DNA of 64,000 nt, taken from the NCBI GenBank assembly GCA_903935205.1, contig CAIZQU010000057.1, forward strand, positions 1 through 64,000. The letters are read 5' to 3'. The notes beneath the pieces are model-generated. The model ran no database searches. It had not been told where the DNA came from and saw only the letters and a program-made list of their open reading frames with translations. The stretch comes from an uncultured cyanobacterium. Lineage in GTDB: Bacteria; Cyanobacteriota; Cyanobacteriia; PCC-6307; Cyanobiaceae. Below, one piece after another: positions 39,101-39,946 of the stretch. The translations under genes were made by a program, and so were the position numbers. Positions within the stretch are counted from its first letter, which is position 1. Each line of letters opens with the position of its first letter.

Positions 39101-39138
39101 GCGCAGAGGTCAAGATGGTGCCCCGAAGGGTTCAGGGA

Positions 39139-39517
39139 CCTGTTGCACGTAGGTCGACAGGCCAGGCCCCGAACAAAGAAGACACGATCGGGCGCCGATC
39201 ACGGCCTCATCCCAAGACACGGGGATCAAGAACACCGCAGCATCTTCATCGCAAGATCCCATGCAGCGCAGTCATTCGGCCCATTGGCACGGCGCCACAA
39301 TCTCGATGCCGCTGCGATCCATGGGAGATCCTGATTCGTTCCATGGCGGCATCTCCCCACCTGATCAGGCAGCAAGCTCCGCAGGGTGCCATTGCGCCTC
39401 GATTGGGTCGCCGCAAAAGCCTTTGCCAGCCTTGGGACTGGGTGGTCCCGAGATCCGCTGCGGAGCTTTCTGCCTAATCAAGTCTCCCCATGGATTGAAA
39501 GCCAATACGACTAGGCA
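39139..39517. repeat. Repeat element copy A
   Basis: Begins CCTGTTGCACGTAGGTCGAC and shares with copy B, in the same order, a CAGGCC..GAACAA block, GGCGCCGATC, CGGCCTCATCC, ATCGCAAGATC, GGCACGGCGCC, CATGGGAGATCCTG and CTCCCCA. It has an extra ~115 bases before a second CTCCCCA and right-end-like segment (39483-39514). It is directly followed by copy B. Confidence 0.7.
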
Positions 39518-39774
39518 CCTGTTGCGCGTAGGTCGACAGACCAGGCCCTGAACAATGACGGACCCGAAGCGGCGCCGATCGCGGCCTCATCCTGAGGCAA
39601 AGGGCATCAAGGACATCTCTGCACCGTCATCGCAAGATCTGCTGCCGTGCCATCCATCTGCCCTTTGCCACGGCGCCGCAATCGCAATGGCGACGAAATC
39701 CATGGGAGATCCTGTTCCGTTGTGTCGCGGGATCTCCCCAGGGATTTGGAGCCACTGCGGCTACGCGCAACAGG
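39518..39774. mobile_element. Repeat element copy B, MITE-like
   Basis: A 257-base unit bounded by perfect 14-bp inverted ends, CCTGTTGCGCGTAG (39518-39531) and CTACGCGCAACAGG (39761-39774). It is a diverged direct repeat of copy A. Size, inverted ends and lack of a gene fit a non-autonomous transposable element. No transposase in this window has these ends. Confidence 0.6.
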
Positions 39775-39946
39775 CTCCTATCCCTGCCGATGGCTCCTGC
39801 GGATTCGGCGGAAGATCACCACGGCTTATGTTCTGATTTTTCTGCTGAGTACATCGTGAATTCGCGGCTCGACTCGCCGCTCGATTCGCCGCTCACGACC
39901 CGTGGCACTGACCTGTAGGGATTGATGGCCATGGCAATCCTTCGGT

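Follow-up and report, generated by a model that had tools for sequence, protein, structure and literature searches.

The window (the whole stretch of 64,000 nucleotides that was analysed) carries two directly repeated copies, A and B, of a short element. They lie downstream of cbiET (precorrin-6Y methyltransferase) and upstream of a gene for a DUF192 protein. Copy B is full length (263 bp, 39515..39777, plus strand); both its limits were set by alignment with the other copies of its own genome. Its perfect 14-bp inverted ends, already described in the earlier note, were recovered by inverted-repeat search (left, 39518..39531, plus strand; right, 39761..39774, minus strand) and sit within 20-nt inverted arms (90%). 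Copy A (39136..39510, plus strand) was delimited using copy B and the other copies. It opens with the same end (39139..39152, plus strand; 13 of 14 bases identical, so that the single difference noted before holds), is interrupted by a nested element and lacks its last ~18 bp, i.e. the right inverted end. A CTAG (39511..39514) separates the end of copy A from the start of copy B. The repeat search aligned A and B in three blocks in the same order (139 nt at 76%, 46 nt at 89% and 44 nt at 77%), which bears out their description as diverged tandem direct copies. A chance origin of this likeness is excluded by the own-genome matches given below. Mechanical open reading frames (ORFs), 63-120 aa long, cover parts of the two copies; as had been claimed, none in the ORF list runs across both. 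The main element is thus a short sequence with terminal inverted repeats (inverted-repeat search and copy alignment) and without a transposase gene, i.e. a miniature inverted-repeat transposable element (MITE).

The interruption of copy A is a second MITE, unrelated to the main one and of IS1595 type. It was identified by repeat search, genome copies, end motif and IS1595 profile (123 bp, 39360..39482, plus strand; arms 88% complementary over 26 nt). Comparison of the flanks showed that it lies between two 8-bp target duplications TCTCCCCA (39352..39359 and 39483..39490, both plus strand). The interruption itself had been recognized in the earlier note, with a length of ~115 bases that has to be corrected to 131 bp (the 123-bp element and one 8-bp duplication). 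Six other copies at 98-100% identity and one at 77% were found in the same genome. Perfect 8-bp duplications flank all seven near-identical copies, the window's included; the 77% copy is without them. A search for the end motif gave 43 occurrences in this genome, many of them close to contig ends, and hits in 19 of the 42 genomes of the genus. In two of these (G183 and G290), ends of this type bracket an ORF and are flanked by 8-bp duplications. The G183 ORF matches the NCBIfam IS1595 model with 189.4 bits (cut-off 75), and an autonomous IS1595 element with the ends of the nested MITE therefore exists. Pieces of IS1595 were located at 25 places in the own genome, mostly at contig ends, as is expected when a repeated IS breaks an assembly; the multi-copy IS1595 probably does so here. 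IS1595 ends or transposase pieces were seen at the ends of contigs C2, C5, C15, C20, C31, C37, C52, C75, C78, C99, C146, C147 and others.

The main MITE is dispersed in its own genome (3.82 Mb, 169 contigs). With copy B as the query (278 bases including short flanks), at least 43 matches of 70-100% identity were obtained, a minimum since 40 of the 85 first-look candidates were scored. Further copies, whose absence the earlier note had regarded as an argument against a transposable element, are therefore numerous. Even the closest of the other copies fall short of full identity to copy B (92-95%), which does not support a recent movement. The end motif gave 86 matches at up to two mismatches, and its reversed control none. 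Elsewhere, the body of copy B was not found in the 39 other genomes searched (40 including its own), and one of them, G007, matched over 24 bases only. With the window site as the query against 42 genomes of the genus including its own, only the own genome matched inside copy B among the best eight candidates per genome. The exact 22-base left end had no match in a scan of named genomes, among which the own genome was perhaps not included. The end motif was present in 56 of 400 genomes of the family, belonging to 15 of 59 genera.

Several copies and end pairs have particular arrangements. Two MITE copies are fused via one shared end (L013/L016, G000:C138:3399-3897), copy two having no left end and starting directly after the right end of copy one. 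Another copy lies inside a tandem array of 12-base units (L008, G000:C150:25355-25617), and simple tandem repeats (GGGAT-like and CCTGACGG-like units) adjoin a further one (L050, G000:C142:1-1172). A second MITE-like family of the own genome (G000), with IS1182-type ends and a different body, was seen at L094 (G000:C150:1-1500) and L097 (G000:C24:1200-3000). In this family the end is followed by ATTTTTCGTGAGGGCAC..., and on C24 two ends are ~250 bp apart. Pairs of IS1182-type ends ~260 bp apart and enclosing other bodies were also found in genomes of the same genus (L060, G007:C22, 5452-5712; L074, L085 and L086 in G306, G022 and G363); these are probably further MITE families.

A candidate partner for the main MITE was found in G007, a genome of the same genus. 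It is a full IS composed of CTAG, GAGCCTGTTGCGCGTAG, a 522-aa ORF, CTACGAGCAACACGCTC and CTAG, and the 24-base match to the MITE is its end. The 522-aa protein matches the NCBIfam IS1182 model (331.9 bits, cut-off 270) and the Pfam domains DUF772 and DDE_Tnp_1_6. The ~20-bp ends of the MITE begin with GAGCCTGTTGCGCGTAG..., as in this IS. They can be classed as IS1182-type, and their recognition by an IS1182 transposase is suggested by this sequence agreement. In the own genome, contig C156 carries a 69% IS1182 relative with two stops and no C-terminus, whose left end is of the same type and reads CTAG followed by GAGCCTGTCGCGCATAGATC, and contig C79 carries a fragment; a search of the 3.82 Mb (169 contigs) turned up no intact IS1182 transposase. 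The full IS with the same ends that the earlier note had proposed to look for thus exists in a congener, with a decayed relative at home. Relatives of the transposase were located at 57 loci of named genomes, mostly Cyanobium, Synechococcus, Vulcanococcus and other cyanobacterial records, a few being listed under different names. Both ends were recognized in 21 of 24 examined loci with near-complete matches (L187, L219 and L225 were omitted, having no convincing right end). CTAG flanks the right side in 21/21 and the left side in 18/21. In a separate list of ends, 23/34 were preceded by CTAG; the motif used there held AG before GAG, so that this context was partly selected, and the 21-locus count is free of that selection.

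The MITE itself sits at CTAG or CCAG, sometimes at the stop codons of genes. Flanks were counted for 32 of the 43 matches, after partial, fused and contig-end copies had been dropped. The left flank was CCAG in 10 and CTAG in eight, and the right flank CTAG in 14 and CTGG in five. The CTAG tetramer is scarce in the window (30 observed vs 55, 98 and 206 expected under three simple models). Target duplication is expected of DDE transposons and is usual for MITEs, though not in every family. Equal flanking 4-mers were present in only 7/32 copies, with ~4.7 expected by chance from the product of the marginal counts. No fixed 4-bp duplication was found, and the target-site duplication hoped for in the earlier note is not a dependable feature of the main element. 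A duplication-free insertion (AGGAG...CTCCT placed between CY and AG) would account for the CCAG/CTAG copies with no need for additional mutations. Among 20 copies, eight have a junction at which an ORF of 190 aa or more terminates, vs four of 30 ordinary CTAGs of the window (P = 0.044, post hoc).

Relatives without the main MITE were found for three sites: the window locus and two others, L011 and L022. At the window locus, ~56-59 bp separate the matched parts of the neighbouring genes in G021, G363 and G256, vs 952-955 bp here. Because this gap is so short in the relatives, the present lineage has gained the MITE pair together with some additional sequence. In G290 the L011 site carries no MITE, and a lone CTAG marks the point of insertion.

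Taken together, the interpretation of the repeat as a small transposable element is supported by the many copies and by the full IS with the same ends. Other origins of the main MITE were weighed. It might have arisen from the IS1182 elements found in this study by simple internal deletion, with the middle lost. The first ~20 bp are indeed common to both (15-19 of 20 bases agree), but the next 40 bases did not outscore shuffled sequences in any of the six comparisons, which took in the elements of G007 and of the own genome only. Since similarity stops after ~20 bp, a plain internal deletion of the elements at hand is disfavoured and judged very unlikely. Alternatively, the repeat could be a conserved structured RNA or a regulatory hairpin (e.g. 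a bidirectional terminator) that is retained because of what it does and has spread only incidentally; such an RNA had been named in the earlier note as the other argument against a transposon. Copy B folds better than shuffled sequences (z = -6.1), and the excess of ORF ends at the junctions could be read in the same way. However, the consensus of 25 aligned copies has a covariation term of just -0.02 kcal/mol, so that the inverted repeats account for the fold. Moreover, no Rfam family matched inside the element at the gathering score (weak and implausible matches only below it), and sites carry or lack the element as one block, its ends being those of a transposon. A structured-RNA identity is not supported and seems extremely improbable.

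The mode of insertion was considered separately. The same MITE may insert by replacing a palindromic target, as reported for IS1272, a studied member of the IS1182 family, and not by simple insertion at CTAG. This would agree with the undependable duplication. At L022 the MITE fills the entire space between two convergent stop codons, where 12 of 17 relatives (the other five were not parsed) have a spacer of 10-92 bp. These relatives are nevertheless so diverged that the ancestral site may still have had its two stops at a single CTAG, and nothing need be missing at L011, where 16 bp of spacer precede the one CTAG of G290 and 25 bp precede the junction in G000. CTAG on both sides of 18/21 full IS1182 relatives also speaks against replacement. 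Published members of the family point both ways: according to PMC5678879, IS1272 makes no duplication and replaces inverted-repeat targets, whereas one IS1182 member is listed with a 4-bp duplication in PMC3281130. Target replacement was regarded as doubtful. A more specific scheme, in which the IS1182-driven MITE docks on CTAG/CCAG at gene ends without target duplication, sometimes replaces the spacer between convergent genes and supplies new 3' ends through its hairpins, seems unlikely.

Copies A and B very probably belong to a ~263-bp non-autonomous MITE family that is moved in trans by an IS1182 transposase to CTAG-like targets, copy A containing a second MITE moved by an IS1595 transposase. 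According to this model, the IS1182-family DDE enzyme would recognize the ~20-bp MITE ends in trans and place the element at CTAG or CCAG, and the MITE would have multiplied within one picocyanobacterial lineage. Copy B sits at a CTAG, in the place that the lost right end of copy A would have taken. The second MITE would have entered copy A later, through an IS1595-family transposase that makes 8-bp target duplications. The numerous copies, the common ends, the CTAG surroundings, the nested insertion with its duplication and the relatives lacking the insertion are direct observations; we infer the movement in trans by both enzymes, which of A and B came first and the manner in which copy A lost its end. 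Four findings count against the model: the lack of an intact IS1182 transposase in the own genome, the unlike bodies of MITE and IS beyond ~20 bp, the undependable duplication and the identity of only 92-95% between copy B and its closest other copies. The model ties an anonymous repeat to a likely transposase and has two unrelated transposase families each supporting a MITE of its own within a single picocyanobacterium. Whether IS1182-type elements duplicate, retain or replace the target can be tested concretely on the unequal CTAG/CCAG flanks and on the insertions at stop codons.

The main MITE is a new family of a kind of mobile DNA that is already known. The literature search, whose reach did not extend to subscription papers and ISfinder, yielded no description of either element. 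The main MITE shares its terminal ~20 bp and CTAG context with IS1182-family IS (NCBIfam NF033551). It differs from them in being non-coding, in its unrelated body and in its flanks, which often combine CCAG at one end with CTAG at the opposite end. The nested element has the ends and the 8-bp target duplications of IS1595-family IS (NCBIfam NF033547) but is only 123 bp long and without a transposase. Nezha and the ISSoc2-derived MITEs of Synechococcus are likewise small, gene-less cyanobacterial elements, the likeness considered here being one of size and lack of genes. The ISSoc2-derived MITEs are located in intergenic regions or in genes of unknown function, according to PMC10969869.
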